Below are positions 4,611-49,112 of a DNA stretch of 64,000 nucleotides, piece after piece. The first letter of the stretch is position 1; each line of letters opens with the position of its first letter. The DNA lies in contig RXJH01000003.1 in NCBI GenBank assembly GCA_003987725.1, forward strand, positions 124,001 to 188,000, written 5' to 3'. The DNA is from Hyphomicrobium sp. (GTDB taxonomy: Bacteria > Pseudomonadota > Alphaproteobacteria > Rhizobiales > Hyphomicrobiaceae). The notes under the pieces are model-generated. The model did not search any database and was not told where the DNA came from. It was given only the letters and a program-made list of their open reading frames with translations. The position numbers were made by a program, and so were the translations under genes.

Positions 4611-4653
4611 TTCCGGCTTCCCTATTTTTGTGTGGCCGCCACGTTCGAGCGTT

Positions 4654-10780: not shown

Positions 10781-10788
10781 GGGGGAAG

Positions 10789-34258: not shown

Positions 34259-34287
34259 GGACGAACCTCATGCTACCAATGTGTATT

Positions 34288-34306
34288 ATGGTCTATTAGT
34301 TAGACC
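34288..34306. promoter_or_regulatory. Palindrome GGTCTA-N5-TAGACC, candidate GntR operator (site 1)
   Basis: A perfect inverted repeat at 34290-34295 and 34301-34306, written with flanks as ATGGTCTATTAG, lies 30-48 nt upstream of the monooxygenase start. The same TGGTCTA core recurs at 39165-39171 and 47395-47403 in inverse orientation. This suggests binding by the GntR/FCD regulator encoded at 47464. Confidence 0.55.
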
Positions 34307-34386
34307 TTTAAGTGGATGTCAAGGCGATAGACGGTGGAAATAGTGGTTGGTCACGATCCCCAGGCGCCGCTTTTTCGAAGTTGCGC

Positions 34387-35133
34387 TTAGGGACCCGGTG
34401 GAACGATCGGCCACGGTTCCGCGAGCGCTTTCTTCAAGAGTGCCGTGAAGTCCTCGACTAGAAGTTCCATCATCTCGCGCCCGTATTGGACGGTCGCCTC
34501 GCTTGGCTTCCCTACGGCTCCCGTCGGAGTCGTGCGCGGAGGTGGATATTGGAAGACGCATCCCGGAGTGACGTCAGGCACGTCGAAGGCCTTTTCCATC
34601 CGCACCATGTCGGGAGCCGCATGCAGAAGAAGCGAGGTCTCGCCACGATTGGCGTGAAAGTCCTCCGCGTCCATGGAGTAGAGTTTGCCGCAACGTTGTG
34701 AAATGTCCCAAAGCCCAAGCTGCCGAAAGCGGACATCAGGCTGTTCGTAGCGGAGCCGCAAAATAGCGCTGCCGAGCGGTGGCCCGTTCGTGGCGTGTCC
34801 CGAAAGATAGACGATCCGGCGGATGCCGGAACGTATGGCCCAAGTCGATATGTCGTAGACCAATCCCGTGAGCGTGACGGGGTCCAACGAAAGTGTGCCT
34901 GGCCACTGATGCGTATGGCCATGCGAGCAGCCGTAGGCGAGGGACGGAAGAACGAGAACGCCTGCTGCGTCCGCGGCGCGTTCGGCAATCATCTCTGCGG
35001 AAATCGTATCCGTTCCCGTCGCCAAATGCGCGGCATGTTGTTCGGTTGCGCCTATAGGTAAGACCGCAAGATCCATCCCTCGCGCAACGAGGGCTCCGAT
35101 CTCCGGGCTCGTAAGCCTATCCCAGCGTGGCAT
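34387..35133 (-). CDS. Creatininase-family amidohydrolase
   Basis: This 248-residue protein of the creatininase family comprises metal-dependent hydrolases of small amides and cyclic ureas. The usual metal motifs are recognisable in altered form: IGATEQHAAHLATGTDT (family PxGSxEQHGPHLPxxTD), SGHATNG in place of NGHGGN, and HANRGETS in place of HAGExETS. The key Glu, His, Asp and Glu are kept, so it is probably active with a shifted substrate. It is cotranscribed with an SDR gene upstream (17 nt gap) and lies in an amine/amide catabolic island. Confidence 0.87.
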   Translation of the reverse strand: MPRWDRLTSPEIGALVARGMDLAVLPIGATEQHAAHLATGTDTISAEMIAERAADAAGVLVLPSLAYGCSHGHTHQWPGTLSLDPVTLTGLVYDISTWAIRSGIRRIVYLSGHATNGPPLGSAILRLRYEQPDVRFRQLGLWDISQRCGKLYSMDAEDFHANRGETSLLLHAAPDMVRMEKAFDVPDVTPGCVFQYPPPRTTPTGAVGKPSEATVQYGREMMELLVEDFTALLKKALAEPWPIVPPGP

Positions 35134-35150
35134 CGTCGGTGCTCCTGCGA

Positions 35151-35912
35151 TTAGGCTGCTGTCACACCGCCGTCGACCATCATGACGTGACCTGTGATGT
35201 AGGACGCGTCATCGGAGCTGAGAAAAAGCACCGGTCCGGCTATCTCGTCCGCGCGGCCAGGACGCGCCATCGGCGTTTGTCCTATGCACCAGGCGAGTGC
35301 GTCCTGATCATTGTCGGCATGAGCGATGAAGCGCATCGACGCGCTCATAGGAAGTACTGCGATAAATCCTGGGGCGACCGCGTTCACGCGAATGCCGCGC
35401 GGCGCCAACTCTATAGCGAGATACTTGGTCAATGCGTCGAGTGCGGCCTTGGATGATCCATACATCGCCCCGCCACGCATGCGGCCGATGCTGCCGGTCA
35501 CACTCGAAATATTGATGATCGATGCACCTTCGGAAAGATGCGGACTCGCGGCGCGGCATACACGAGCGGCGCCAGCAATATTCACGTCCCACACGGTGTT
35601 CAACGCATCGTCGGTAATGTCTTCGACGAGACCGTGGCGCAACAATCCCGCGCAGTTGACGACGACCTTGAGGCGTCCGAGCGACGCGCAATAGGCGATG
35701 CAAGCATCGACGTCCTTCGAGCTGCGAACATCCATGCGGTAAAGAAAAACGCCGTTGGGCTGGTCCGCGGCCTGCCGGCTTGAGTCGTCTTCGGGGACAT
35801 TCATGTCCGCGGCGACGACGATGTAGCCCGCGTCGATGAACCTTTTGTTGATCTCGCGGCCGATGCCTCCGGTTCCTCCGGTAACCAACGCGACATTCTT
35901 CAGGTACGTCAT
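35151..35912 (-). CDS. SDR-family oxidoreductase (1)
   Basis: This 253-residue classical short-chain dehydrogenase has the cofactor motif VTGGTGGIGREINKRF, VVNCAGL, the catalytic Ser in INISSVTGS, and the active-site YGSSKAALD (Tyr and Lys). An Asp after the second strand (ADMNVPEDD) favours NAD(H). It oxidises an alcohol or reduces a ketone. It sits directly upstream of the creatininase homologue; three different SDR genes occur within 4 kb, so several alcohol/ketone steps are likely in the pathway. Confidence 0.9.
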   Translation of the reverse strand: MTYLKNVALVTGGTGGIGREINKRFIDAGYIVVAADMNVPEDDSSRQAADQPNGVFLYRMDVRSSKDVDACIAYCASLGRLKVVVNCAGLLRHGLVEDITDDALNTVWDVNIAGAARVCRAASPHLSEGASIINISSVTGSIGRMRGGAMYGSSKAALDALTKYLAIELAPRGIRVNAVAPGFIAVLPMSASMRFIAHADNDQDALAWCIGQTPMARPGRADEIAGPVLFLSSDDASYITGHVMMVDGGVTAA

Positions 35913-35983
35913 TGTTCTTCCTTTTTAAGCCCTTTGAGTGAGTAGAGAGATCTCGTCACATGAAGACCGGATTGAGCGAATGC

Positions 35984-37357
35984 TCAGATGCGCTCGAAGT
36001 AGCGGACGAGTTCCCAATCGGTAACGGTGTCTTGCTCGAAGGCATCGAGCTCGTTCTCGGCGAAGTTCCTGAGATGATCGTGGACGTCGTTTCCGAGGTC
36101 GGAGCGAACCAGATCGCTCGCTGCGAACAGCGATACGGCTTCCCGCATCGTTGCCGGAACGCGCGGAAGCGACGGATTTTCGTAAGCGTTGTCCATGTAC
36201 AAGTCGGGTGTCGGCCGAGCGCGATCGATGCCGCTCAGGCCGCTTGCGATGAGGCCGGCGAGGGCAAGGTAAGGATTGGCGTCAGCACCTGGAATGCGGG
36301 ATTCGACCCGGAAGCTCTTGTCGTGTCCGACAAGGCGGAAGCCGCAGGTTCGATTGTCGTTTCCGACGCAGAGTTGAACGGGCGCGAACGAGGTCTTTCG
36401 GAAGCGCTTGTAGGAGTTGATCGTCGGAGCGGCCAAGTATGCGTATTCGCGTCCGTGGTCGATCATGCCTGCAACGAACGAACCAAATTGTCGAGACATA
36501 TGCGTGGCGGAGCCGCCGTCGTAACTCGTCGGCTGGCCGGTCGCCTTGTCCCATAGGCTGATGTGAACGTGACAGGATGAGCCGATTTCATCGATGAAAG
36601 GCTTTGCCATGAAGGTTGCCGAAAGCCCACGCAGGCTCAGCAGCTCTTTGACCCAGCACTTGTACAGCACATGCCGGTCTGCCATCTCGAGTGCATCGGT
36701 GTAGCGGAGCGCAATCTCCTGTTGGCCGAGGCCCCATTCCGTTTTCGCGTTTTCCACCTCGATGCCCGCCGCATTCATCGCATCGCGGATTTCGCCGATA
36801 ATCTCCTCGTCTCGCGTTGACTGCAGGATGTGATAGTCGGCGCGATAGCGCGACGTCGGAACGAGATCTCTGTAGCGCTTGTGCCAAGCCTCATCGTAGG
36901 TATCGCGAAACAGGAAGAATTCGAGTTCCGTCGCGCACTTGAACGTAATACCCATACCCTCTGCGCGAGCGATCTGCCGCTTAAGAATGCTTCTCGGCGC
37001 TACGGGCACCAGCTCGCCCGTCGTTTCCTCGATCGCGTCACAGAGGACGAACGCAGTTCCCGGCGTCCAGGGAAGAAGCCGGATCGTCGAGAGATCGGGC
37101 TTCATCACGAAGTCTTGGAAGCCTTTGTCCCATCCCGTCAGCGCATATCCGGGACGGGGATCCATATCCATGTCGGTGCAGAAGAGATAGACGGAGGCGT
37201 GCAGGCCCTCGTTGCCGGAAACGCATTGCATGAAGCTCTTTGCGGTCACACGCTTGCCGACGATCCGCCCCCAAAGATCGGCCAAACCGCAGACGACCGT
37301 CTTCACTGACCCGTCTTCAATCCGTCTCTGCAGTTCGGCGAGTGTCACAGCGGTCAT
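35984..37357 (-). CDS. Glutamine-synthetase-family protein, gamma-glutamylamide synthetase type (1)
   Basis: This 457-residue GS-fold ligase has a beta-grasp N-domain (about 15-110) and a catalytic domain with the metal/ATP motifs CATELEFFLFRD, ENAKTEWGLGQQEIALRYTD, GSSCHVHISLWD, the APTINSYKRFRKTSFAP loop, and RVESRIPGADANPYLALAGL. The C-terminus WELVRYFERI is typical of PuuA/IpuC/GMAS-like enzymes, which couple glutamate to an amine with ATP rather than to ammonia. A true GlnA would be accompanied by glnB and an adenylylation-site loop, not seen here. It lies between SDR genes in the island and probably activates the pathway amine as a gamma-glutamyl amide. Confidence 0.88.
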   Translation of the reverse strand: MTAVTLAELQRRIEDGSVKTVVCGLADLWGRIVGKRVTAKSFMQCVSGNEGLHASVYLFCTDMDMDPRPGYALTGWDKGFQDFVMKPDLSTIRLLPWTPGTAFVLCDAIEETTGELVPVAPRSILKRQIARAEGMGITFKCATELEFFLFRDTYDEAWHKRYRDLVPTSRYRADYHILQSTRDEEIIGEIRDAMNAAGIEVENAKTEWGLGQQEIALRYTDALEMADRHVLYKCWVKELLSLRGLSATFMAKPFIDEIGSSCHVHISLWDKATGQPTSYDGGSATHMSRQFGSFVAGMIDHGREYAYLAAPTINSYKRFRKTSFAPVQLCVGNDNRTCGFRLVGHDKSFRVESRIPGADANPYLALAGLIASGLSGIDRARPTPDLYMDNAYENPSLPRVPATMREAVSLFAASDLVRSDLGNDVHDHLRNFAENELDAFEQDTVTDWELVRYFERI

Positions 37358-37394
37358 TCGAATTCCCCGTTGCCCGGACGATTTCTGAGATCGT

Positions 37395-38180
37395 TTATTC
37401 AGAGAGATCTGGTGGCGCCAGATACGCGCCGGTCATGCCCCCATCGACCGCAAATGCTTGCCCGGTAATGTAGGAAGAATCGTCGGAGGCCAGAAATGCA
37501 ACTGTCGCTGCTGTTTCATCCGGACGTCCCATGCGGCCCATCGGAATGTGCAAACGGCGAAGCTGATAGGCGGCATCGTTCTCCACGAGCTGCGAAGACA
37601 TCTCGGTTGCAGTCAGTCCGGGACAGACGGTGTTCACGCGAATCCTGCGGCGGGCCAACGTCACCGCAAGTTCCCGGCTGAATGAAAGAACGCCACCCTT
37701 GCTCGCCGTATATGCGATCTGCGCCGGACAAGATCCGAGCATCGCGACGATCGAGCTGATGTTGACGATCGAGCCGCCGCCGCTCTTCTCCATCTCGGCA
37801 ATGGCGTATTTCGAGCAGAGAAATACGCTCTTCAGATTAACCGCAAGCGTCAGATCCCAGGCTTCCTCGGTCGTACCTTCGGCATCGGCATCGTCTGGGT
37901 GCACGATCCCGGCGTTGTTGATGAGGATGTCGAGGCCGCCAAGGGCACTCACGCTTTGATAAATCAGCCCTCGCACTGAGCTCGCCGATGCAACGTCGAC
38001 TTCGATTGCAAGGGCTGTTCTGTTCTGTGCGCCGAGCTTCGCCGAAAGTCGTTCGGCTTCCGCGATATTTTTGTCGGCGATAATGACGGAAGCGCCTTCG
38101 TGGAGGAGGCGCTCAGCGATCGCTGCGCCAATTCCACGAGCTCCGCCCGTCACGATCGCACGTTTTCCATTGAGTTTCAT
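37395..38180 (-). CDS. SDR-family oxidoreductase (2)
   Basis: This 261-residue classical SDR has VTGGARGIGAAIAERL (cofactor), ILINNAGIVHP, NISSIVAMLGSCP and YTASKGGVL (Tyr, Lys), and an Asp (ADKNIAEAE) favouring NAD(H). A longer GTG start (38198) exists, but AAGGGG 6-7 nt before the ATG at 38180 supports the shorter form. It follows the third SDR gene closely and precedes the GS-like gene (37 nt), so these form one transcript. Confidence 0.9.
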   Translation of the reverse strand: MKLNGKRAIVTGGARGIGAAIAERLLHEGASVIIADKNIAEAERLSAKLGAQNRTALAIEVDVASASSVRGLIYQSVSALGGLDILINNAGIVHPDDADAEGTTEEAWDLTLAVNLKSVFLCSKYAIAEMEKSGGGSIVNISSIVAMLGSCPAQIAYTASKGGVLSFSRELAVTLARRRIRVNTVCPGLTATEMSSQLVENDAAYQLRRLHIPMGRMGRPDETAATVAFLASDDSSYITGQAFAVDGGMTGAYLAPPDLSE

Positions 38181-38194
38181 GCGTTGCCCCTTGC

Positions 38195-38962
38195 TCACAG
38201 CTTTGCGAGCAGTCCGCCGTCGACCGGCAGATCGATCCCAGTGATGAATCTCGCCTTCTCAGAGAGAAGGAACAGCGTCGCTGCCGACACGTCTGCAGGC
38301 AGGCCGATGATGCCGAGAGGCGTCCGCGCCTCCATCGCTGCGGTCCGGCGAGGATCGACGTAGATGTCTGCCGTCATCGGCGTGGATATCGATCCGGGAC
38401 ACACGGTGTTGGATCTGATCTTTTCGCGGGCATATTGCATTGCGATTGAGCGCGAAAAGGAGATCAGCCCGGCCTTCGAAATCTGGTAGGCATCAGCAGG
38501 ACCGCCATCGATGATGTTCTCCATGTTTCTGAGACCCACGACACTCGCTATATGAACGAACGCGCCGCCGCCTGCCTTGCGAAGCAAAGGCAGGCTCGCC
38601 CGAACGACGCGAATTGCGCCCGTCAGGTTGACGTCGATGGTCGCCGCGAAGACGGCGTCATCTGCCTTCTCCACCGACCCGTCACGCTCGAAAAAGCAGA
38701 GACCGGCGGCATTGACGACGAGATCGAGCTTGTTGTGAGCCTTGTCGATTGCATCGAAAATGGACTGCACTTGCGCACTGTCGCGCAGATCACCTTGCAC
38801 AAAACGCGCGCGCGGATGTCCTTGCAGTGCGTCGGGCTCCGCTTTGAGATCGAAGGCAAAGACGTAAGCGCCGTGCTCGAGAAGATCGGACGCAATTGCG
38901 AGACCGATGCCACCGCCCGCTCCGGATACGAACGCGACCTTGCCGTCGAATTCTCGACTCAT
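38195..38962 (-). CDS. SDR-family oxidoreductase (3)
   Basis: This 255-residue classical SDR opens MSREFDGKVAFVSGAGGGIG, with VVNAAGLCFF, HIASVVGLRNME, and the active-site YQISKAGL (Tyr, Lys). It has a second-strand Asp (FAFDLKAEPD) for NAD(H). The frame stays open far upstream to a TTG at 39178, but the ATG at 38962 gives the normal family start. It is the first gene of the minus-strand half of the island, divergent from the ABC importer across a region with an inverted TGGTCTA-type site. Confidence 0.9.
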   Translation of the reverse strand: MSREFDGKVAFVSGAGGGIGLAIASDLLEHGAYVFAFDLKAEPDALQGHPRARFVQGDLRDSAQVQSIFDAIDKAHNKLDLVVNAAGLCFFERDGSVEKADDAVFAATIDVNLTGAIRVVRASLPLLRKAGGGAFVHIASVVGLRNMENIIDGGPADAYQISKAGLISFSRSIAMQYAREKIRSNTVCPGSISTPMTADIYVDPRRTAAMEARTPLGIIGLPADVSAATLFLLSEKARFITGIDLPVDGGLLAKL

Positions 38963-39152
38963 TGCGAAGACCTTGTCATTGTGAGTGCCGATACGCGCAG
39001 CAGCTTCGAATGGCATCGCGCCGCGCGAAAAGTATCGGAGATCGGCGCTGGCAAGGCGAGGAAGATTTTGTTCGCTGTTGCGCAATCGAATTGTGAGTGA
39101 GGCGCGTTTCGCGAAGGCATGAAGACAATTCCTGTTGACTTGGATCAGACTA

Positions 39153-39171
39153 TGGACTGAAATGTAGACCA
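39153..39171. promoter_or_regulatory. Imperfect palindrome TGGACT-N7-AGACCA, candidate GntR operator (site 2)
   Basis: The arms match in 5 of 6 positions, and the right arm reads TTTGGTCTACATT on the minus strand, matching the TGGTCTA core at the other two sites. It is placed in the 252-nt divergent region between the SDR transcript and the branched-chain-type ABC importer, so it could control both. Confidence 0.5.
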
Positions 39172-39214
39172 AAGGCAAGACGAGTTATTTAAACGGTCGA
39201 GCTGGGGGCTAGGA

Positions 39215-39978
39215 ATGCAACTCGTCGAGCAAGCGCCACAGCAATCGCGCGGACTGATCGTGAGTGGCGTGCGCAAAAGTTTCGGCGGCCTTAAGGTCCT
39301 TCGCGGTGTTGATCTTGCCTGCGAGCCCGGGGAAATCGTCGGATTGATCGGGCCGAACGGCGCGGGGAAATCAACGCTCATCAATGCCATCACGTCGCTG
39401 ATGCCCGTCGATGAGGGACACGTTGCGATCGCCGGGCAGTCGTCAGCAACACCACTCCGCAACATTGCATGGCCGCTGGCCTGGCGCGTACATTTCAAAA
39501 CATCAAGCTCTTCACGCGGCTCACCGTGCGCCAGAACATCGAGGTCGCGCTGACGAGCGGACGGCGTGATCGCCCGAAGCAAACCGAAGCGATTTCAGTG
39601 GATGATCTGCTCGGCTGGTTCAATCTGGATCAGATCGCCGACTGGAAGGCCGCCGCGCTGTCCTATGGCAATCAGCGCCGGCTGGAGATCGCGAGGGCGC
39701 TCGCTCTAGGCCCCGCGCTGCTCATGCTCGACGAGCCGGCCGCCGGTATGAACGCGGCCGAAACGACAGTCCTCGGTTCGGCGATCAAAGGAATCCGCGA
39801 CCGCTTCGGATGCGGCGTCATCGTGATCGATCACGACCTCCGGTTCATCATGACCCTCTGTCAGCGCATCTACGTGCTTGACGCCGGAGAGATCGTTGCA
39901 ACCGGAACGCCCGCCGAAATCCGGAAGCACCCCCGGGTCATTGAAGTTTACATCGGCCACACCCGTTCAACTCAGTAG
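39215..39978 (+). pseudogene. LivG-type ABC transporter ATP-binding protein, frameshifted
   Basis: This is the ATPase gene of a branched-chain amino-acid-type importer. The first part encodes Walker A (GPNGAGKSTLINAIT) in one frame. From about 39437-39460 onward the family sequence continues in another frame with GLARTFQNIKLFTRLTVRQN, the signature SYGNQRRLEIARAL, Walker B LLMLDEPAAGMN and the H-switch VIVIDHDLRF. The total of 764 nt is one base short of 255 codons, so a single-base deletion in the TCGTCAGCAACACC stretch explains it. It could be a real inactivating mutation, a programmed shift or a sequencing error. The rest of the importer is intact. Confidence 0.85.
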
Positions 39979-40002
39979 TCTGGAACCTGAAGGAGCGTCA
40001 CT

Positions 40003-41151
40003 GTGAAGATAAAGCCTTTGCTTCTGAACTCGATGATCGCCGTTGCCATATCTGGCGCTCCAGCCAGCGCCGAAGATCAGCTCGTCATCGGATATGCGGC
40101 GGCCGTCACAGGCTCCTTGGCTCCCTATGATAGCCCGGCAGGCGTCACGTGCCGTGTCGAGCAGATCAATGAGGCGGGCGGCATTCTCGGGAAGCCGGTC
40201 AAGCTCATCATTCGCGACACCAAGAGTGACGCCGTTACTGCAAGCAACGTCGGCCAGGAATTGCTTGACCAGGGTGCGAACGTGATCCTCGGACCTCCAA
40301 CCGACGACGGTTTGATTCCGATTGCGCAGCTCGCGCTGCCGAAGGGCATCCCGGTTCTTTCCGTCGGCGCCACGCAGCCTGCCTTCCCGGTTGCGTCGCC
40401 GGAAAACGGATACCTTGTTCCATTCGGCGACAACGCTTCGGCCGCGGGCGCTGCGGAAGTGGCCTATAAGGCCGGGCATCGCAAAGCCATCCTGATGATC
40501 GCGAACGATGTCGGCGCCTACTCGGCGATCACGCCGGAGTATTTCGGGAAGGCGTTCGAGAAGCTCGGCGGCAAAATCGTCGGTCGCGTCAATTACCACC
40601 ACGGTCTGGCCGACTACAACACGCAGGTCGCCGAGATCCGCAACAATGCTGAAAAGCCGGACATGATCTTCGCGGCCATCCTCGTGCCGGATGCCGGCGT
40701 TCTCGTTCGCACGATCAATGCGGCGGGCCTTGATATCCCCGTTTATGGCACCGACGGCTTTGACGATCCTTCGTTTATCGAGGTCGCTGGCGCCGGAGCA
40801 GGCCTGGCGACGTTCGTCACGCATGGCTATCCCTCAGAAGGAAGCCCGCTCAAGGCCTTCTACGACGATTGTACGAAACGCGGACATAACCCTCAGAACA
40901 TCTTCTTCGGGCTCGGCGGAGAAGCCGTGGAAGTCGTCAAGGCTGCCATCGAAAGCGCCAACTCTTTCGACCCGCCTGCCATCAATGCAGCTATCAAGAA
41001 CATCGAGAACCTGAAGGGCATCACGACCGGATCGATCACCTACAAGGATCGCGGCGGTGTGCCTCTCAAGGAAATGACGGTGATGCACGCCAAGGACGGA
41101 AAGGTTCTGCCGGTCGAGACCGTGCGCCCGAGCTGGGTCGCAGCTCCTTGA
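40003..41151 (+). CDS. ABC transporter substrate-binding protein, LivK/amide-urea type
   Basis: This 382-residue periplasmic protein has a signal peptide (MKIKPLLLNSMIAVAISGAPASA) and a type I periplasmic-binding fold (Peripla_BP_6). It has LVIGYAAAVTGSLAPYDSPA at the first strand, the hinge GKPVKLIIRDTKSDA, and FVTHGYPSEGSP in the second lobe. It has a GTG start with AGGAG upstream. The family carries branched-chain amino acids, amides, ureas or aromatic compounds. With the GS-like enzymes beside it, an amine or amide ligand is plausible. Its stop overlaps the second ATPase start. Confidence 0.9.
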   Translation: MKIKPLLLNSMIAVAISGAPASAEDQLVIGYAAAVTGSLAPYDSPAGVTCRVEQINEAGGILGKPVKLIIRDTKSDAVTASNVGQELLDQGANVILGPPTDDGLIPIAQLALPKGIPVLSVGATQPAFPVASPENGYLVPFGDNASAAGAAEVAYKAGHRKAILMIANDVGAYSAITPEYFGKAFEKLGGKIVGRVNYHHGLADYNTQVAEIRNNAEKPDMIFAAILVPDAGVLVRTINAAGLDIPVYGTDGFDDPSFIEVAGAGAGLATFVTHGYPSEGSPLKAFYDDCTKRGHNPQNIFFGLGGEAVEVVKAAIESANSFDPPAINAAIKNIENLKGITTGSITYKDRGGVPLKEMTVMHAKDGKVLPVETVRPSWVAAP

Positions 41152-41867
41152 TGCTCAGCCTCAGCAACGTCCACGTGAGTTACGGGCCGATCAAAGCTGT
41201 CCGTGACGTATCGATTGAAGTCAAGGAAGGCGAGATCGTCGCCCTCCTTGGACCAAACGGCGCGGGCAAGACCAGTCTCATCTCATCGGTGGTAGGTATC
41301 GCCCCCATCGCCTCCGGCCGCATTGCATTCGATGGCCACGAGATCTCGAGAGAGCCGACGGAAGCAATCGTGGCGCGGGGGCTGACCCTCACGCCCGAAG
41401 GCCGAAGAGTGTTTGCGGATCTGACCGTCGGAGAAAACCTTCGGCTGGGCGCAGCAAGCCGGCGCGATAAAGCAGGCATCGCTGAGGATCTCGAGAAATA
41501 CCTGGAGCTCTTCCCGATTCTGCGAAAGCGTTATGCATCCCGCGCGCGCATGCTGTCGGGTGGCGAGCAGCAGATGTTGGCGATTGCGCGCTCGCTGATG
41601 TCGCGGCCGAAAATGCTGATGCTGGATGAGCCCTCGCTCGGTCTTGCACCGCGCATCGTCGATCAGATCTTCGAGCTTTTGAGCAGTCTCCGGAGCCAAG
41701 GTCTAACCATGCTCATCGTCGAGCAGAACGCGAACGAAGCACTGTCGCTCGCCAATAGCGCTTACGTCGTTGCAAGTGGCTCGCTCGTTTTTTCCGGAAC
41801 GGCGTCCGCCCTCAAGGCTTCGGGCGAAGTCATGGAAATGTATCTCGGTCTCGAGGGGCAAGAATGA
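41151..41867 (+). CDS. ABC transporter ATP-binding protein, LivF-type
   Basis: This 238-residue ATPase has Walker A LLGPNGAGKTSLISSV, the signature LSGGEQQMLAIARSL, Walker B MLMLDEPSLGLAP and the LivF-typical C-terminus with SGTASALKASGEVMEMYLG. The ATG at 41151 overlaps the binding-protein stop (TGATG). The downstream permease start overlaps its stop. It is intact, unlike its LivG-type partner. Confidence 0.93.
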   Translation: MLSLSNVHVSYGPIKAVRDVSIEVKEGEIVALLGPNGAGKTSLISSVVGIAPIASGRIAFDGHEISREPTEAIVARGLTLTPEGRRVFADLTVGENLRLGAASRRDKAGIAEDLEKYLELFPILRKRYASRARMLSGGEQQMLAIARSLMSRPKMLMLDEPSLGLAPRIVDQIFELLSSLRSQGLTMLIVEQNANEALSLANSAYVVASGSLVFSGTASALKASGEVMEMYLGLEGQE

Positions 41868-42766
41868 TGTCCGACTACGCTTTGCAGCAGGCCTTCAATG
41901 CCCTGAGCGTGGGCGGCGAATACGCGTTGCTCGCGTTGGGTCTTGCTATTGTTTTCAGCGTCATGCACCTCGTGAATTTCGCTCACGGCGATATGATCAC
42001 GGTGGGCGGCTACGCGATGTTTCTCCTGATTATGTTCGGCGTGCGCGACCCTTTTCTCGTGCTGCCGTTCGGCGTGCTGGTCACCGTGCTCGCCGCTCTG
42101 CTGATCGAACGGGTCGCGTTCAAGCCCGTGCGAGGCGCTTCGCCGACGACGGGAATGCTGACGGCCTTCGGCGTGAGCATCATTATTCAGAACGTCGCGC
42201 TCATATTCGGAGGCAGCAGGCCGAAGGCGGTTCCGACCGCCGATTGGCTCGCATCGTCTCTCTCGATCGGTTCAGTTCAAATTCCTGTCGTGCAGGTTCT
42301 CGAAACCATCGTGACGCTGGCCGCCATCATCGGCTTGGTCGCGCTCATGCGTTACACAACCGTCGGACTTGCGATGCGGGCGGCGGCCAAGGATGTGCCG
42401 GTCGTCCGTCTCATGGGCGTAAAGGCGGATCGGGTCATCTTGTCGGCGTTCGCCATCTCGGGCTTTCTCGCGGGTCTCGCGGGAATCTTCATCCTAGCGC
42501 GACGCGGTGCGGTGGATCCGTTCATGGGGTTTGCGCCCGTCCTCAAAGCTTTCGTCGCTGCGGTGTTGGGGGGATTTGGCAGTCTTCCGGGCGCGGTCGT
42601 CGGCGGCTTCGCCCTCGGCATCGCTGAAGTTGCGCTTCAGGTTCTGCTTCCGCCCGAGATCGCTGGCTTCAGAGACGCGTTCGTCTTTCTTCTTATCGGA
42701 ATTGTCTTGGTGTTCCGTCCGCAGGGCATCCTCGGCGAACGCCCGGATTTTGGAGAAAAGTCTTGA
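41864..42766 (+). CDS. ABC transporter permease, LivH-type
   Basis: This 300-residue permease has about eight hydrophobic segments and the family motifs LGLAIVFSVMHLVNFAHGD near the N-terminus, LRYTTVG-like MRYTTVGLAMRAAAKD in the cytoplasmic loop, and AVLGGFGSLPGAVVGGF. It overlaps LivF by the ATGATG/TGA junction. It forms the translocation pore with the LivM-type subunit. Confidence 0.93.
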   Translation: MMSDYALQQAFNALSVGGEYALLALGLAIVFSVMHLVNFAHGDMITVGGYAMFLLIMFGVRDPFLVLPFGVLVTVLAALLIERVAFKPVRGASPTTGMLTAFGVSIIIQNVALIFGGSRPKAVPTADWLASSLSIGSVQIPVVQVLETIVTLAAIIGLVALMRYTTVGLAMRAAAKDVPVVRLMGVKADRVILSAFAISGFLAGLAGIFILARRGAVDPFMGFAPVLKAFVAAVLGGFGSLPGAVVGGFALGIAEVALQVLLPPEIAGFRDAFVFLLIGIVLVFRPQGILGERPDFGEKS

Positions 42767-43830
42767 GCAACTTTCTTCAATCGGTCCGCGGGGCACTCAT
42801 CCTGGGTGTCGCGGTCGGCGTCATCGGCGTCTTGGCGCTTCTGTTTGCCGAGCCGTTCTATCAACGCATCGTCTTCATCTTCATGGTCAATCTCATCGCA
42901 GTGATCGGCCTGCAGGTATTCATGGGCAATGCCGACATCACCAATTACGGTCATATCAGTTTCATGGGGATCGCCGCCTACGCGGTGGCAATCCTTGCGA
43001 CACCCGCGGCCATCAAGAAGACGTCTTTGGCGACTGCGCCGTTTGGTCTTGGTACGATCGAAGTCGCGCTGCCGATCGCCATTTTGATCGCATTGGCGCT
43101 GACAGTTCTGATCGCATTTCTCGTCGGTACGATGTTGGTGCGCCAGTCCGGAACGCCCGCTTCGATTGCCACGCTGGCCCTCCTCGTCATCGTCCATGTC
43201 GTGATCATGAACTGGGTCGATCTGACGAGGGGGCCACGGGCGATCTATGGCATTCCCGTAAAGGCGACGCTGGGCATGGCAACAATCTGCGCGATCCTGG
43301 CGATCGTTGCTGCGCGCTTATTTCGGGACTCGTCATGGGGACTGCAACTTCGCGCCGCGAGCGAGAATATCGCCGCCGCCAGTGCCATGGGCGTCCGGAT
43401 CAAGCGCTTGCGATTGGTGGCCTGGGTCGTAAGCGCCGCGATTTGCGGCGTCGCAGGAATTCTTTTCGCCCTGTTCGTCGGGACGATCAGCCCCAAGAGC
43501 TTCTATTTCGATCTGACGTTTTTGACGCTCGCGATGCTGGTCGTCGGCGGAGCCTATAGCGTCAGTGGCGCGGTGCTCGGCTCCATCGTAGTTACATTCG
43601 GTTTCGAGATAATGCGGTATCTTGAAAACGGCCCGCAAATCGTAGGGCTGAAATTGCCGACCATGTTCGGTCTCACGGGCATATTTCTCGGAGCCATCAT
43701 CGTGCTCTGCATGATCTTGCGTCCGCGCGGTCTGGTCGGAGACGACGAAATAGATGAGATTTGGCGGCGCCGATCGAAAAATCGAGAGCGTTCGGAAATC
43801 TCAGCCAATGCCAGCGGAGCAGCGCAATGA
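42763..43830 (+). CDS. ABC transporter permease, LivM-type
   Basis: This 355-residue permease has about ten hydrophobic segments and IGLQVFMGNADITNYGHISFMGIAAY, the usual LivM segment, SSWGLQLRAASEN in the loop contacting the ATPase, and VVGGAYSVSGAVLGS. The likely start is TTG at 42763, overlapping the LivH stop. Its stop overlaps the ATG of the cysteine-rich unknown gene (ATGA), showing that the unknown protein is made from the importer transcript. Confidence 0.92.
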   Translation: MSNFLQSVRGALILGVAVGVIGVLALLFAEPFYQRIVFIFMVNLIAVIGLQVFMGNADITNYGHISFMGIAAYAVAILATPAAIKKTSLATAPFGLGTIEVALPIAILIALALTVLIAFLVGTMLVRQSGTPASIATLALLVIVHVVIMNWVDLTRGPRAIYGIPVKATLGMATICAILAIVAARLFRDSSWGLQLRAASENIAAASAMGVRIKRLRLVAWVVSAAICGVAGILFALFVGTISPKSFYFDLTFLTLAMLVVGGAYSVSGAVLGSIVVTFGFEIMRYLENGPQIVGLKLPTMFGLTGIFLGAIIVLCMILRPRGLVGDDEIDEIWRRRSKNRERSEISANASGAAQ

Positions 43831-44900
43831 GCGCCAGGGAGCGGGAAGCGCCATCGCCACTGGTGATGCATGAGACCATCGGCTACGAAATTCGCCGTGG
43901 CAATTATCTCGAGCACGCGGCATCAACCTACACCCTGGCGGCGGCAGCAATCGTCGAAGGACGTTTCCAGGACGCGATGGAGCTGGGTCGCTATACGGTT
44001 CGCGAAGCGGTCGAAGCGCATGAACTCTACCGCGACTGGATCGTAGAGATTAAGGGCTATCTCCGCGAACGCGGTGTATCCGAAGATGTGATTGCGACGG
44101 AAGAGCGCCGTATTCGCAATCTTCTGAAGTTCGACGACGGCGGCGAATTCGACGCCGAAGCGGGTTGGGCGAGCTACAACGCAACGATCGAAGCATTCGC
44201 AGCAGCTTGCACCGCCGGTCGCGCAAAGGACGCCACTTCACTTCTCGATATCGCGCGCGAGACCTGGCGCGATACCCACGATCGCAAATGCGATTGGGTT
44301 TACGGCCTCATCGATGTCGCCGCACGCCAGCTCGGCGAGAACTGCATCGGTGAGCTCTGGGACGTGCTGATGGCGCCGATGTATGCCTATTACGTCCGCT
44401 ATGACGTTGACACTAATCCTTGGCCGAGATCCTTCGATCTGCTCATGCACTACGCGCTCGAAGGCCTGCGCGGCCACCTGAGCGGTCCGGCGCGCCTTGG
44501 CGAAATCGAGGTGTTCGAGGAAGAGGATCGTTGGGGCATGCGATTCGATCCGTGCGGGTCAGGCGGCAGGACATACCGCGACGATCCCAAGGCCGGTTTG
44601 ACGCCGCGCATGGAAGCGCCGTTCAACTTCGGCGTGACGACCAAAGAGCATGACTGGGCGTGGAACAAGAAGGGCATCTGTCACTACTGCGTGCACTGTT
44701 GCGCGCTGAATGAGAGGATGCCGATGCGAAAATTCGGCTATCCCACGCGCGTCGTCGATCCGCCGACTTGGCCTGATGCCCAGAGCGGAGGGAAATGCAC
44801 GTGGTATGTCTACAAGGACCCGACGCGAATACCCGCTGCCATCTACGAGCGGGTCGGCATGAAGAAGCCGGCCGCAATCGGCGGTTCAGCGCAAAAATAG
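43827..44900 (+). CDS. Cysteine-rich protein of unknown function in the amine island
   Basis: This 357-residue soluble protein has no family I can name. A helical N-terminal half (about 20-215) is followed by a C-terminal part with two conserved-looking clusters: RFDPCGSGGRTY (about 240-250) and ICHYCVHCCALNE (about 284-296), plus Cys 324. Cys and His spacing (C-x-x-C and H-C-C) suggests a metal or Fe-S site, or a redox/thiol enzyme. The ATG overlaps the LivM stop, and 39 nt after its end the second GS-like gene begins, so it is an integral member of the operon. It could be the catalytic step that acts on the gamma-glutamyl amide. That is inference. Confidence 0.75.
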   Translation: MSAREREAPSPLVMHETIGYEIRRGNYLEHAASTYTLAAAAIVEGRFQDAMELGRYTVREAVEAHELYRDWIVEIKGYLRERGVSEDVIATEERRIRNLLKFDDGGEFDAEAGWASYNATIEAFAAACTAGRAKDATSLLDIARETWRDTHDRKCDWVYGLIDVAARQLGENCIGELWDVLMAPMYAYYVRYDVDTNPWPRSFDLLMHYALEGLRGHLSGPARLGEIEVFEEEDRWGMRFDPCGSGGRTYRDDPKAGLTPRMEAPFNFGVTTKEHDWAWNKKGICHYCVHCCALNERMPMRKFGYPTRVVDPPTWPDAQSGGKCTWYVYKDPTRIPAAIYERVGMKKPAAIGGSAQK

Positions 44901-44939
44901 CGGATCACCTCAATCCGCAGAAGTTTACGAGGGGAGAGA

Positions 44940-46304
44940 ATGGCGACAGCAACATCGGAGCGGCTCGCTCTGGATAAGCTTGCCGAGTCCGGCATCGAAT
45001 TCGTGCAGATGGAAACCGTCGACCTCGACGGCGCGCTGAGAGGAAAGTTTCTCCCGGTATCCAAAGTTAAGCCCGACGCCCAAGGCGCGTTTTGCACCAT
45101 CCTGTACCAGATGACACCGGTCGACGACGTGTGGGTGACGCGTCATAGCTCCTTCGACAACGGTTTTCCGGACATGCGAGCGATGCCGGATCCGCAGACG
45201 GCTGTGCGGTGGAACTGGCAGCCCGATACGGCGGCGGTCCTTTTCGATATGTTCAACGTGGACGGCGCGCCCTATCCGCTGGCGCCGCGATCGATCCTCA
45301 GGCAAGTCGCCTCGCGCTTCGCAGAGACCGGCTATGAACCGCGATTTGGCATCGAGTTTGAAGCCTTCGTGATGCGCGCTGACGAAGAGCTGATGACGCA
45401 AGGGCGCCATCACGAAATGAAGCCGCTCGGTGGAATGCATAACGCTTACAGGCTGAACGATGCCGCCGAAGCGCGCGATCTCGGAAAGACATTCATCCAG
45501 CGCATGCGCGGTTTGGGAATTGACGTCGAAGCCTTCCACACCGAGCTTGGATACGGCGCCATCGAATTCGCCTTTGCTCCCGTCGGAGCCCTCGCTGCTG
45601 CCGACAATGCGACGCGCGCGAAATCGTACTTTCGCCAGCTCTGTGCCGAACGGGGGCTTGTCGCGACCTTCATGGCAAAATGGAAGGTCGGCGAGTCGGG
45701 TGCCGGTGGCCATGTCCATCAAAGCATGTGGCGTGACGGACAGAACGCCTTCTACGATCCCGCGCGCAGCACGCTTTCGGACGTCGCACTCCACTACGGC
45801 GCAGGCCTGATCAAGTCCATGCCGGACTTCGCCGTTCTCTTCAGGCCCAACGTCAATTCGTACCGAAGGTTCGACCATCGCGCCTGGTCGCCGGAGAACG
45901 CCTCGTGGGGCTATGACAATCGCAGCGCCGCGCTACGTGCGATCCGGCAGCCGGGTCAGAATGCCTATCGATATGAGCATCGCGTTCCGGGCGCCGATAC
46001 CAATATCTATCTCAGCCTCGCTGCAATGTTGGCGGGCGGCCATCTCGGACTAAAGAACAAGCTCACACCGCCTGCCGCTGCCGAGGGCAATGCAGCGTTG
46101 GATGCGAGCTGCGCCCGCCTGCCATCGACTCTGCCGGAAGCAACCGAGCTTTTCCGCAGTTCGGCGATCGCGAAAGATTACCTGGGAGCCGCATTCGTAG
46201 AGCACTACGCGGCTTCGCGCGACGTCGAACACCAGCACTGGGAGGCGTGGCTCGCCGAGCAGGTCACGTCCTACGAACTCAAGCGCTACTTCAAGACGAT
46301 CTGA
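44940..46304 (+). CDS. Glutamine-synthetase-family protein, gamma-glutamylamide synthetase type (2)
   Basis: This 454-residue GS-fold protein has VDLDGALRGKFLPVSK in the N-domain, RFGIEFEAFVMRADEEL, VEAFHTELGYGAIEFAF, GESGAGGHVHQSMW, RPNVNSYRRFDHRAWSP and RYEHRVPGADTNIYLSLAA in the catalytic barrel, with the C-terminus SYELKRYFKTI. It has an ATG with GGGGAGA upstream. It is the second such gene in 10 kb and only moderately like the first. Paired GS-like genes in amine operons often make a gamma-glutamyl amide in one step with a second paralogue of different specificity, or act as a hetero-oligomer. A nitrogen-assimilation role is less likely. Confidence 0.88.
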   Translation: MATATSERLALDKLAESGIEFVQMETVDLDGALRGKFLPVSKVKPDAQGAFCTILYQMTPVDDVWVTRHSSFDNGFPDMRAMPDPQTAVRWNWQPDTAAVLFDMFNVDGAPYPLAPRSILRQVASRFAETGYEPRFGIEFEAFVMRADEELMTQGRHHEMKPLGGMHNAYRLNDAAEARDLGKTFIQRMRGLGIDVEAFHTELGYGAIEFAFAPVGALAAADNATRAKSYFRQLCAERGLVATFMAKWKVGESGAGGHVHQSMWRDGQNAFYDPARSTLSDVALHYGAGLIKSMPDFAVLFRPNVNSYRRFDHRAWSPENASWGYDNRSAALRAIRQPGQNAYRYEHRVPGADTNIYLSLAAMLAGGHLGLKNKLTPPAAAEGNAALDASCARLPSTLPEATELFRSSAIAKDYLGAAFVEHYAASRDVEHQHWEAWLAEQVTSYELKRYFKTI

Positions 46305-46369
46305 CGATTGCCAGCGGCGCATCTCAACAACGGCCAACAAAAGCAAAAGAGCAAAGCGAGACCTTTTCC

Positions 46370-47308
46370 GTGAGCGAACTTCATCCGACACTCAAGAACA
46401 TACTTCAGCAGCCGGAAAACCCGAATGCAACACCCGTCGAGATCCAGGATCCCGACGAAGCGCGGCGCGAGTGGAAATCGGATATGGCCGCCGTTGACGC
46501 ACCGGCGCCCGAGATGGCCAAGGTGCGCGACTTCGTAATTCCGGGTCCAGCGGGCCCGATCCCGGCACGAAGCTATGTTCCCACAGGTTTGCCGGACACC
46601 GGCCGCCCGCTGCTCGTCTATTACCACGGTGGTGGCTACATCCGCGGTGATATCGATACGCACGATTCGGTCTGCCGTGTCCTGGCGCGCGAGGCGGGCT
46701 GCATGGTCGTCTCACCCGCATACCGGCTCGCGCCGGAGCATCGCTTTCCGGCGGCCGCCGAAGACGCGTTCGCGGTCGTCGACTATATGAGCAGGAAGGC
46801 CAAGGATTTTGGCGTCGATCAGAGCCGGATCGCCGTCGGTGGCGATAGCGCCGGCGGCAATCTCGCCATTGCTGCCAGCATACAGGCGAGGGACAAAGGC
46901 GCTCCGAAAATTCGCTTCCAGCTTTTGATCTATCCCGTTACCGACCTGACGAGCGCCAATGAGTCCAAGCGGCTTTTCTCGAAAGGCTTTCTTCTCAACA
47001 GCATGCCTTTCTATATCGCCAGTTATCTCGGCCCCAATGGGGATGGCCGGAATCAGCTTGCGTCGCCGCTGCTGAGCGATGATCTGTCTCGTCTCCCTCC
47101 TGCATTTGTCATTACGGCGGGCTTCGATCCCTTGCGGGATGAAGGTCAGGACTTCGCGCGGAAGCTCGCAGCGCACGGTGTTGCCGTCGAGCACAAATGC
47201 TATGAAGACATGATTCACGGATTCGTATCGCTTCGCGGACTTCTGCCCGAAGCCGATGCGGCGCTCGGCGACTGTGCACGCCGTTTGGCGAAATCCTTAT
47301 TACCGTGA
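46370..47308 (+). CDS. Alpha/beta hydrolase, hormone-sensitive-lipase family
   Basis: This 312-residue esterase/amidase-like enzyme has the oxyanion-hole motif YYHGGGYIRGD, the nucleophile elbow GGDSAGGNLA (Ser), acid residue DPLRDEG (Asp), and MIHGF (His). It hydrolyses short acyl esters or amides. The start is GTG at 46370, 65 nt after the GS-like stop. An in-frame start further upstream would overlap that gene. It sits at the end of the importer/GS operon, likely processing a lactone, ester or amide intermediate. An ester intermediate would fit with the Baeyer-Villiger monooxygenase of the same putative regulon. Confidence 0.87.
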   Translation: MSELHPTLKNILQQPENPNATPVEIQDPDEARREWKSDMAAVDAPAPEMAKVRDFVIPGPAGPIPARSYVPTGLPDTGRPLLVYYHGGGYIRGDIDTHDSVCRVLAREAGCMVVSPAYRLAPEHRFPAAAEDAFAVVDYMSRKAKDFGVDQSRIAVGGDSAGGNLAIAASIQARDKGAPKIRFQLLIYPVTDLTSANESKRLFSKGFLLNSMPFYIASYLGPNGDGRNQLASPLLSDDLSRLPPAFVITAGFDPLRDEGQDFARKLAAHGVAVEHKCYEDMIHGFVSLRGLLPEADAALGDCARRLAKSLLP

Positions 47309-47394
47309 GGAAAAAGCAACCGGCGGCGCCTGCCTGCGGATTGGCCATCAAATGCTAAATTTCGCCGCGCCCACAATTCCAATTCCATCATTTA

Positions 47395-47414
47395 TTAGAC
47401 CATTGGACCAATGG
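47395..47414. promoter_or_regulatory. Operator-like palindromes upstream of the GntR gene (site 3)
   Basis: TTAGACCATT (47395-47404; minus-strand AATGGTCTAA) overlaps a perfect 15-bp palindrome CCATTGG-A-CCAATGG (47400-47414). The AT-rich promoter lies 50 nt upstream of the GntR GTG start. It shares the TGGTCTA core with sites 1 and 2 and is probably autoregulatory. Confidence 0.5.
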
Positions 47415-47463
47415 ATGCTACATACTTCGTCATCTGCATATTTATCTGGCAATAGAGAAATCG

Positions 47464-48249
47464 GTGAAAGCAGTGAAGCAGCCCGATGCAAGCAAGCCTG
47501 GCGACCCCGCCATAGGCTCGATTAGAGCTGCTGCCACCTATGAGCTCGTGGTCGAGCAACTGCGCAAGGCAATCTTCCTCGGACGTTTCATGCCGGGCGA
47601 CAAACTCCCGCCGGAGCGTGATCTAGCGCAGCAGATGCTTGTTTCGCGAACCACGATCAGAGAGGCAATCCGCGTTCTCGAAGGCGAAGGGCTGCTCGTC
47701 GTCAAAAGAGGCGCGGCTGGCGGCCTTGTCGTTCTCGGTCAAAATCGCCTGAAGCCCGCTGAAATTGAAGTCTACATGGAAACCCAACGCGGGCTTCTAG
47801 ATAGTCTCTTCGAATATCGCCTCGCAAACGAGTGCGCCGCTGCATCACTCGCCGCCAAGCGGCGGGAAAAGAAACATCTGAAGTTGCTGAAAAAGGCTCT
47901 CGTTGAAATGGATACGCTCTGCGCCAGCCGCGAGGCGAGAGCGCACACGGCAAACATCTCGCGATTTTTTGCATGCGATTCCGAATTTCATCTGGCCATC
48001 GCACAGGCATCCCAGAACCATTATCTTCTGGAGGCAGTCGAGAAATCGCGCGCAGCCATGTTCTTGCCGGTCGGCAAGGTCTTCAATCGCCTCGAAGACA
48101 GGGCCAACGATCACCATCAGGGCATTTATCAGGCGATCGAAGATCAGAATGCCGATCTCGCCGCACAGCGCATGAAGATGCACATCGAAGCAACCCGCGC
48201 GAGCTTGTACGACCTCATGCCGAAAGCCATCAAGGCGAAGCGCCCATAA
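47464..48249 (+). CDS. GntR/FadR-type (FCD domain) transcriptional regulator
   Basis: This 261-residue regulator has a winged helix at about 30-95 (PGDKLPPERDLAQQMLVSRTTIREAIRVLEGEGL). The C-terminal FCD ligand-binding helical domain (about 100-250) has a metal-binding Asp/His set (CDSEFHLAIAQAS, NDHHQGIYQAI). It has a GTG start. It likely controls the island: the TGGTCTA-type palindromes fit the usual TGGT-N-ACCA style of FCD regulators and occur upstream of itself and two divergent promoters. Ligand is probably the substrate or a carboxylate product. Confidence 0.9.
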   Translation: MKAVKQPDASKPGDPAIGSIRAAATYELVVEQLRKAIFLGRFMPGDKLPPERDLAQQMLVSRTTIREAIRVLEGEGLLVVKRGAAGGLVVLGQNRLKPAEIEVYMETQRGLLDSLFEYRLANECAAASLAAKRREKKHLKLLKKALVEMDTLCASREARAHTANISRFFACDSEFHLAIAQASQNHYLLEAVEKSRAAMFLPVGKVFNRLEDRANDHHQGIYQAIEDQNADLAAQRMKMHIEATRASLYDLMPKAIKAKRP

Positions 48250-48337
48250 TGGGAGGCTGCTCTTGGCCCCATTCCACGCGGCCCGGATGCTCTCGCCAAG
48301 CTCAGACATCATCTCACGCACTGAACGAGGAATTATC

Positions 48338-49093
48338 GTGAGCGTAAATCGCCGGGAACTGAATATTCTTGCCGTCATGCCTGGTGGAATGCAGGGGATC
48401 GAAGAAACCGGATGTATTGGCGAGGTCGTCGAGAAGCGCGGCGCGAAGCTCCACTGGGTTTACAAAAGTCGAGATGATCTGCTTCCGAAATCGCACGACG
48501 CCTTCGATGGGCTCATCGTTTTTGGCGGTGAAATCGGAGTACATGAAGAGAAGTTCGCCGATTATTTCCGCGAGCTGACCGGGCTCGTCCGGTCATTCCA
48601 TGCTGCTGGAAAACCTATTCTGGGCTCCTGCCTCGGATCACAAACAATCGCGCATGCATTTGGCGGCCAAGCCAGGCCACAAGGCTTCTTCGAATTCGGC
48701 TTCTCCGACCTCGACTTGGAGCCAGCGGCCGAAAACGATCCGCTGCTCGCGGGCACACCGGCCACCATTTCGCTTTTCGAAATGCATTACGACACGATGA
48801 CTCTGCCGAAGGACGCGGTTCGTCTAATGCGTGGCCGCGAGGTTGAAAACCAGGCGTTCCGCGTCGGACAAAAGACATACGCGTTTCAATGTCACTTCGA
48901 GGCGACGAAAGACATCGTCGAATTCTGGGTCGCTCGCGGCCTTCGGGGAGGCGGGTCAGGCTTTACCGATGCCGAGCTTGACGCGATGATGGCGAAGGTC
49001 GCGTCTGAGTTTGATAAATTGGGGTCCGGTCAACGCGCCTTCGGGGAAAAGGTCGTCAACCGTTGGATGGATCTTTTTAAAGATCGCACCTGA
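48338..49093 (+). CDS. Class I glutamine amidotransferase-like protein
   Basis: This 251-residue protein has a GATase-1 fold with nucleophile Cys in GSCLGSQTIAHAFGG and the catalytic His in FQCHFEATKD. Such stand-alone proteins resemble GMP-synthase-like amidotransferase domains. In the presence of gamma-glutamylamide ligases, a gamma-glutamyl hydrolase role, releasing glutamate from the gamma-glutamyl intermediate as PuuD does, is attractive but unproven. The GTG at 48338 has GAGGA upstream. It lies 88 nt after the regulator gene. Confidence 0.85.
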   Translation: MSVNRRELNILAVMPGGMQGIEETGCIGEVVEKRGAKLHWVYKSRDDLLPKSHDAFDGLIVFGGEIGVHEEKFADYFRELTGLVRSFHAAGKPILGSCLGSQTIAHAFGGQARPQGFFEFGFSDLDLEPAAENDPLLAGTPATISLFEMHYDTMTLPKDAVRLMRGREVENQAFRVGQKTYAFQCHFEATKDIVEFWVARGLRGGGSGFTDAELDAMMAKVASEFDKLGSGQRAFGEKVVNRWMDLFKDRT

Positions 49094-49112
49094 CGCTGTA
49101 TTTGCCGTGAGC

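Follow-up and report, generated by a model that had tools for sequence, protein, structure and literature searches.

Ketones of the cyclohexanone type are degraded by a short-chain dehydrogenase (SDR), a Baeyer-Villiger monooxygenase (BVMO) and an alpha/beta-hydrolase acting in series. To our knowledge, neither a BVMO nor an esterase forms part of the gamma-glutamylation routes that serve ethanolamine, polyamines or methylamine. In those routes, to which the abstracts of PMC6529630, PMC5403932 and PMC7948447 relate, the amine is capped in an ATP-dependent reaction by glutamine-synthetase (GS)-like ligases, namely GlnA4, GlnA3 and PuuA (ethanolamine, polyamines) or GmaS (methylamine). IpuC of the Ipu pathway is likewise a GS-like ligase, with an aromatic residue at the position of Glu327 of GS, and SDR and glutamine-amidotransferase genes adjoin it on pTC1. 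Here we describe a 16.3 kb gene cassette of Hyphomicrobium sp. (Alphaproteobacteria) that lies in a stretch of 64,000 nucleotides (contig RXJH01000003.1, positions 124,001 to 188,000; hereafter the window). It shares the amine-type ligases with the Ipu pathway, which has one ligase and a P450 with ferredoxin and reductase but no BVMO in the stretch seen, whereas the cassette has two ligases and a BVMO-type enzyme. It also shares the trio of SDR, BVMO and alpha/beta-hydrolase with Baeyer-Villiger ketone routes but adds amine capping, so that the substrate of the BVMO would be a gamma-glutamyl aminoketone.

A further point of comparison is the tetramethylpyrazine (tpd) pathway of Rhodococcus jostii TMP1, since genes of tpd type are found close to the cassette on three plasmids of Rhodococcus. 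As described in parts of the published accounts, it involves a tpdABC operon and TpdR, a LuxR protein of 788 residues (PMC6099782), and leads from tetramethylpyrazine through (Z)-N,N'-(but-2-ene-2,3-diyl)diacetamide and N-(3-oxobutan-2-yl)acetamide to N-(3-hydroxybutan-2-yl)acetamide (PMC9818360), the last step being performed by TpdE (PMC4647570). In the passages of PMC9818360 and PMC4647570 considered here the pathway ends at this compound, and the kinds of enzyme encoded in the cassette are not mentioned. We read the cassette as a horizontally spread catabolic unit that degrades a small vicinal amino-alcohol via gamma-glutamyl-capped intermediates, and we put the probability of this reading at about 0.5. 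It suggests a so far undescribed route for small amino-alcohols in which the nitrogen is capped with glutamate.

Extent and conservation of the cassette

The genes form two halves that diverge from about position 39000. The minus half runs SDR3, SDR2, GS_A, SDR1, creatininase-family gene and flavin monooxygenase; the plus half runs LivG, binding protein, LivF, LivH, LivM, CysR, GS_B, esterase, FCD regulator and glutamine amidotransferase (GATase).

32777-34258, minus: BVMO/FMO-type flavin monooxygenase (Pfam FMO-like and Pyr_redox_3; start codon uncertain; collinear in the congener G344)
34387-35133, minus: creatininase-family amidohydrolase, not the creatininase equivalog (PF02633, E=9.1e-61)
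35151-35912, minus: SDR1 dehydrogenase (SDR family; 40-42% identity in Rhodococcus, 50% in Oceaniradius)
35984-37357, minus: GS_A, amine-type GS-like ligase (PF00120, active site, tree)
37395-38180, minus: SDR2 dehydrogenase (SDR family; start assumed, open frame to 38198)
38195-38962, minus: SDR3 dehydrogenase (SDR family; start assumed, open frame to 39178; 43% in Rhodococcus)
about 39215-39978, plus: LivG importer ATPase, frame broken in the window (from comparison with L020)
40003-41151, plus: substrate-binding protein of Liv/HAAT type (Peripla_BP_6; PDB matches are amino-acid/amide and Leu/Ile/Val-binding proteins)
41148-41867, plus: LivF ATPase (ABC ATPase domain match)
41864-42766, plus: LivH permease (BPD_transp_2)
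42763-43830, plus: LivM permease (BPD_transp_2)
43827-44900, plus: CysR, orphan protein of 357 residues (PCGSGGR, CxYCxHCC and CxW motifs; read from the ATG at 43827)
44940-46304, plus: GS_B, amine-type GS-like ligase (PF00120, active site, tree)
46385-47308, plus: HSL-type esterase with GDSAGG motif (PF07859, Abhydrolase_3; start assumed, open frame from 46247)
47464-48249, plus: GntR/FCD regulator (GntR and FCD domains; 41-44% in Rhodococcus)
48338-49093, plus: class I GATase-fold hydrolase with GSCLGSQ (PF00117 and PDB matches; start assumed, open frame from 48263)

DNA comparison places the conserved unit at 32778-49096, a single collinear stretch of 16.3 kb with 90.7-90.8% identity in the congener G344, which appears to be a Hyphomicrobium metagenome-assembled genome (MAG) and whose flanks (23.7 kb: 15.2 kb on one side and 8.5 kb on the other) have no match in the window at E<=1e-20. 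G357, apparently H. zavarzinii, has the cassette genes at 66-76% DNA identity, with the monooxygenase gene inverted. (The stretches from G344 and G357 repeat loci L020 and L021 and were counted once.) A third congener, G342, has no CysR match, and window positions 32662 and 51694 are only 181 bases apart in it. Within this empty site, 83 bases (16831-16913 of L068) match the last part of the monooxygenase gene at 96% identity; because this piece remains between the flanks, G342 probably once had the cassette and then lost it, the piece being a likely deletion scar. The neighbouring CLC gene sits elsewhere on the same G342 contig. As the 16.3 kb are collinear in a congener with non-matching flanks and the set recurs on plasmids of another phylum, the grouping of these genes is more than chance.

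A first-pass annotation of this DNA, made from the letters alone, had proposed an amine/amide catabolic island at 34387-49093. Its genes are open frames where it placed them, with Pfam or NCBIfam matches to the families named; the start lies at 32777, and the BVMO-type gene was missed. The Rieske-reductase gene at 31057-32637 was considered as a member and rejected, since the collinear unit ends at 32778 and the gene adjoins the empty site in the cassette-less G342.

Two ligases of the amine type

GS_A and GS_B keep the metal and phosphate residues of GS (equivalents of E129/E131, E212/E220, H269, R321 and R339/R344), and equivalents of R355/E357/R359 were read from alignments, in what we take to be the GS numbering, including that of Glu327. 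At the position of Glu327, in the ammonium site, GS_A has Phe and GS_B has Trp; the four Rhodococcus copies compared have Phe, IpuC has Trp and the GlnA of the window genome has Glu. The FDGSS loop of GlnA is missing from both. Their scores against TIGR00653 (GlnA) are 212.3 and 209 bits, compared with a cut-off of 429.15, and they are also far below the PuuA and type III equivalog cut-offs. Ordinary glutamine synthetase was therefore rejected for both proteins, on an active site without Glu327 and on the GlnA equivalog score, in agreement with the view of the first-pass annotation that they are something else. We take both to be active amine ligases, with predicted formation of gamma-glutamyl amides.

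In a tree of 16 of 19 rows (own_L004, own_L008 and the partial A_Ocean, not comparable at most sites, were left out), GS_A groups with two Rhodococcus A copies (100/99), and GS_B and the Rhodococcus B copies fall in a clade (100/99) that also holds an Oceaniradius and a Roseateles ligase; IpuC lies outside both clades. The two ligases have thus been kept as a pair. GS_A-like ligases also sit with an SDR and an ethanolamine permease in Thermomicrobium, and with an SDR and an ALDH in Allomeiothermus.

A monooxygenase of the Baeyer-Villiger type

Type I BVMOs carry the fingerprint FxGxxxHxxxW(P/D), with two Rossmann motifs flanking it. The window monooxygenase has this fingerprint as FKGPQCHTSRWP, flanked by the Rossmann motifs GSGFSG and GTGSSA, and the His and Trp of the fingerprint are kept in 7 of 7 aligned copies. 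Its best PDB matches are cyclohexanone, steroid and phenylacetone monooxygenases (up to 215 bits), whereas FMO entries reach at most 56.3 bits and one 'flavin-dependent monooxygenase' entry 61.4. By these features the flavin enzyme is of the BVMO type, with predicted ketone-to-ester activity. It is 63-64% identical to the copies on the three Rhodococcus plasmids in the plasmid search, the next plasmid record standing at 36%, and at E<=1e-120 it is matched in 1 of 385 genomes of the class, its own. A 29%-identical relative with the motif FKGTSVHTGRW lies directly upstream of GS_A in Oceaniradius.

The orphan protein CysR

No Pfam, NCBIfam or PDB-sequence match was found for CysR, in keeping with its first description as unknown. 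That description had also called it Cys-rich, which does not hold: the protein has 9 Cys in 357 residues and is marked instead by a conserved motif, PCGSGGR ... CxYCxHCC ... CxW. Five Cys (243, 285, 288, 291 and 324) are invariant in the eight full-length sequences aligned, as are His151, His217, His290 and several acidic residues. Five shorter relatives (two more, s_L014 and s_L015, were left out of this comparison) keep PCGSG-R and YCxH, without the first Cys of the CxYC motif, and one of them has YCxHE and PCSF in place of YCxHC and PCxW. A structure model of fair quality (pLDDT 84.5) gave no clear match to a solved structure, either whole or for the C-terminal part alone, which is not proof of a new fold. 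Our guess is that CysR may be a metal- or thiol-dependent enzyme acting on small keto or hydroxy compounds.

On plasmid pRHL3 of R. jostii RHA1, a short CysR relative (L019, 11887-12654) lies among genes for a 2-oxoacid dehydrogenase complex, an alcohol dehydrogenase, a GAF-domain protein and an AMP-binding enzyme, a neighbourhood that seems to recall an acetoin catabolism operon. An Acidimicrobiia MAG contig (L025) has two CysR copies, at 4274-5338 and 9911-11089, near GFO/IDH/MocA, ceramidase-like and zinc alcohol dehydrogenase genes.

Distribution and shared core

CysR matches were found in 7 of 289 genomes of the class (2 full length, the window's own and G196), 4 of 103 of the family (3 full length) and 2 of 398 of the phylum (1 full length, its own), these samples overlapping in part. 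A CysR search of the genome collection gave 6 loci. Among 72,556 plasmid records there were 4 matches. In three of these, from R. pyridinivorans SB3094, R. opacus 1CP (pR1CP1) and Rhodococcus sp. JS3073, the match covers at least 80% of CysR.

A core of the cassette is present in seven genomes or plasmids, namely the window genome, the Hyphomicrobium MAG G344, H. zavarzinii, Oceaniradius and the three Rhodococcus plasmids. Because the set is found among Hyphomicrobium relatives, in Oceaniradius and on Rhodococcus plasmids, the lack of conservation that the first-pass annotation had named as a reason to abandon its idea does not apply. Common to Oceaniradius and all three plasmids are relatives of both ligases, CysR, the monooxygenase, the esterase, two SDRs and the regulator. 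Identity of the Rhodococcus proteins to those of the window is highest for the BVMO (63-65%), followed by GS_A (47-48%), SDR3 (43%), the FCD regulator (41-44%), GS_B (42%), CysR and SDR1 (40-42% each) and the HSL esterase (37-38%). Oceaniradius stylonematis has GS_A, GS_B, CysR, three SDRs, HSL, FCD, an importer and a creatininase homologue, with a GATase-fold gene before the monooxygenase relative and a transposase-type integrase gene at the other end. All three Rhodococcus clusters have glutaminase A and gamma-glutamyl hydrolase in addition, and both annotated clusters have acetyl-CoA synthetase (the check covered SB3094 and 1CP).

Other CysR loci are looser. In the proteobacterial MAG L023/G847, CysR is accompanied by two SDR3-like genes, HSL, FCD and a luciferase-like monooxygenase; this genome has a GS_A relative (55%) on a different contig. 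In G196, the genes found with CysR encode an FCD regulator, an SDR and again a luciferase-like monooxygenase.

Association with tetramethylpyrazine genes

Some distant owners of the cassette also carry genes like those known from alkyl-pyrazine degradation. On 3 of 3 Rhodococcus plasmids, tpd-type genes lie 0-20 kb from the cassette, and a TpdB of more than 50% identity is present in exactly 3 of the 72,556 plasmid records, the same three plasmids. With the SB3094 TpdB as query, 17 plasmid records were matched: itself, the two other Rhodococcus plasmids at 54.5%, and 14 below 38%. Upstream of the cassette, pR1CP1 has tpdB (by its annotation) and, at the position of tpdA, a luciferase-type gene. 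The same region encodes an amidase, a 787-residue LuxR regulator, a flavin reductase and an SDR, as well as a DMFase-beta-like protein whose gene immediately precedes those for gamma-glutamyl hydrolase. The corresponding genes of JS3073 are 99-100% identical to these. A DMFase-beta-like gene, 33% identical to that of pR1CP1, is also found about 15 kb from CysR in G196, a genome of the window's class (L027, 13-2055). In the window itself, a luciferase-type oxidoreductase at 7191-8069, far from the cassette, shares 35% identity with the TpdA-like protein encoded on pR1CP1, which probably reflects no more than membership of a general family.

When SB3094 is compared with 1CP, protein identity is 78, 54, 57, 45 and 46% for the tpdA, B, C, E and R types and 37, 43 and 58% for the small protein, flavin reductase and DMFase-like protein. 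On the cassette side, seven proteins (both ligases, CysR, BVMO, HSL, SDR3 and acs) are 78-88% identical, with glsA at 90, AllG at 91, FCD at 88, two SDRs at 93 and 80, the permease at 84 and the gamma-glutamyl hydrolase at 76%. Because the eight upstream genes span 37-78% and the 14 cassette-side genes 76-93%, the comparison suggests that different tpd modules were joined separately to one cassette; unequal rates of evolution could also explain the contrast.

A proposed pathway and its alternatives

The presence of a BVMO-type monooxygenase together with an esterase supplies the logic of the proposed route, of which the substrate, the single reactions and their order are predictions from sequence. 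In Hyphomicrobium, the Liv-type importer would bring in an amino-alcohol from outside. A GS-like ligase would then cap the amine with glutamate at the expense of ATP, and an SDR would convert the adjacent secondary alcohol into a ketone. The BVMO-type enzyme would insert oxygen beside the carbon that bears the capped nitrogen, giving an acyl ester of an N-acyl hemiaminal from which the HSL esterase would release an acid; for a methyl carbinol substrate this would be acetate. The hemiaminal would break down to an aldehyde and glutamine. Glutamate would be recovered by the GATase-fold enzyme and, in Rhodococcus, by glutaminase A as well. The acetyl-CoA synthetase, glutaminase A and gamma-glutamyl hydrolase of the Rhodococcus clusters are what such a scheme needs: there, acetyl-CoA synthetase would take the acetate and glutaminase the glutamine. 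Alpha-aminoketones condense to dihydropyrazines and pyrazines, and capping may serve to stop this condensation, which would re-form the starting compound.

Because the Rhodococcus versions lie near tetramethylpyrazine-type genes, they point to a branched vicinal amino-alcohol. Hydrolysis of N-(3-hydroxybutan-2-yl)acetamide would give 3-amino-2-butanol, and the DMFase-beta-like hydrolase, encoded between the tpd-type genes and the cassette, could free it. The likely substrate in Rhodococcus is thus 3-amino-2-butanol from tetramethylpyrazine, and we infer that this version is the lower tetramethylpyrazine pathway; for the Hyphomicrobium set, the probable substrate is the same or a similar vicinal amino-alcohol, taken up by the importer. 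The first-pass guess of a cyclic or branched amine is narrowed accordingly, at least for Rhodococcus, and 1-amino-2-propanol, an earlier candidate, is weakened by the tpd association. Creatinine was rejected as a substrate: the creatininase homologue belongs to the family, as had been noted, but scores 122.5 bits against a cut-off of 235 for TIGR04448, so neither creatinine nor classical creatininase function is implied.

Several findings weigh against this amino-alcohol reading or limit it. The tpdB name rests on the annotation of pR1CP1 and the other tpd names on family and order. In SB3094 insertion sequences separate the corresponding genes from the cassette, at distances of up to about 20 kb, and since those of 1CP and JS3073 are nearly identical, the three plasmids amount to about two independent cases. 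The identity ranges on which separate joining is argued just overlap (tpdA 78%, hydrolase 76%). Neither acs nor glsA is in the Hyphomicrobium cassette, the uncontrolled TpdB search described below found nothing in the window genome, and the Rhodococcus clusters lack the creatininase homologue. In Oceaniradius, the window monooxygenase has no match at E<=1e-40, only the 29% relative beside GS_A, and the Rhodococcus monooxygenases have Tyr for the Phe that opens the strict BVMO fingerprint. Finally, two actinobacterial MAGs with CysR (L024 and L025), genomes that are possibly incomplete, have no GS_A at E<=1e-60 (0 of 2), and in L023/G847 and G196 CysR stands beside luciferase-like monooxygenases, so CysR is not specific to the proposed scheme.

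Part of this evidence would also suit another substrate in Hyphomicrobium, such as an amino-ketone or an amine that is cyclic or branched, handled by the same cassette logic, with the tpd association concerning just Rhodococcus and the cassette borrowed there. We consider this a serious competitor, though a less likely one. TpdB had no match in the window genome, the search having been run with no positive control (the same query finds its 54.5% plasmid relatives), and the lineages differ in transporter and accessory hydrolase, the Rhodococcus clusters having an AllG-family protein in place of the creatininase homologue; but the eight shared genes and orthologous ligase pairs suggest a common core series of reactions, and the BVMO is the most conserved of the shared genes. 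The flavin enzyme could instead be an FMO-like N-oxygenase or hydroxylase, with the esterase acting on an unrelated ester, the creatininase homologue opening an amide or lactam and the ligases serving an Ipu-type amine route. The creatininase-family gene does adjoin SDR1, a P450 fills the oxygenation slot in the IpuC cluster, and the Rhodococcus monooxygenases depart from the strict fingerprint, which begins with Phe, in having Tyr in its place and Ile after the Trp, so that the BVMO fingerprint is intact in the window and relaxed in relatives. The PDB matches to BVMOs are nonetheless well ahead of those to FMO and flavin-dependent monooxygenase entries, and another BVMO-type protein occupies that place in Oceaniradius, which makes this version improbable.

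We give almost no credence to the idea that common catabolic genes lie together here by accident and that the ligases are ordinary glutamine synthetases. It is true that SDRs, Liv importers and GS paralogues occur often, the window genome alone having 9 GS-domain matches, but the unit recurs in two other Hyphomicrobium genomes, in Oceaniradius and on three plasmids of Rhodococcus, and the ligase active sites are of the amine type. Conservation, together with these sites and the ligase scores, supports the first-pass claim that this is a catabolic island holding two GS-like ligases of the amine type along with an undescribed protein; the observation was right and understated, and the amine-island reading is partly supported.

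Beyond the amino-alcohol reading itself lies a fuller proposal, which we hold tentatively and at less than even odds: that glutamate capping, Baeyer-Villiger oxidation and ester hydrolysis, releasing carbon as an aldehyde and nitrogen as glutamine, constitute a new amine catabolism and the missing lower part of tetramethylpyrazine degradation, with CysR as a new metal- or thiol-dependent enzyme family acting on the small keto or hydroxy intermediates. If true, it would name candidates for the genes behind the lower half of alkylpyrazine degradation and join gamma-glutamyl capping to Baeyer-Villiger oxidation, two chemistries that do not occur together in the pathways considered here. It would also give an orphan family with a strict Cys motif a metabolic context in which its role can be tested. 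Since flavour compounds and industrial chemicals commonly include pyrazines and amino-alcohols, the genes would also be of use as markers. Among the matches listed from open-licence PMC full text, nothing concerned this gene set or 3-amino-2-butanol catabolism, which is no proof of absence from print.

Other features of the region

LivG is one base short near 39440 in the window relative to the 90%-identical L020, where the frame is open and a LivF-like open frame of 272 codons spans the place of LivG; the window copy reflects either a real break or a sequencing error. The HSL-type esterase scores 346.6 bits for the LipP1 family (cut-off 350). No RNA family was found within 30000-52000 at gathering score, and a promoter scan of the divergent region 38900-39260 gave one weak site only, of no use. 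Beyond the cassette, positions 51720-54188 encode a large protein with a multihaem cytochrome and TPR/HEAT repeats, adjoining a sulfatase gene at 54121-55998.

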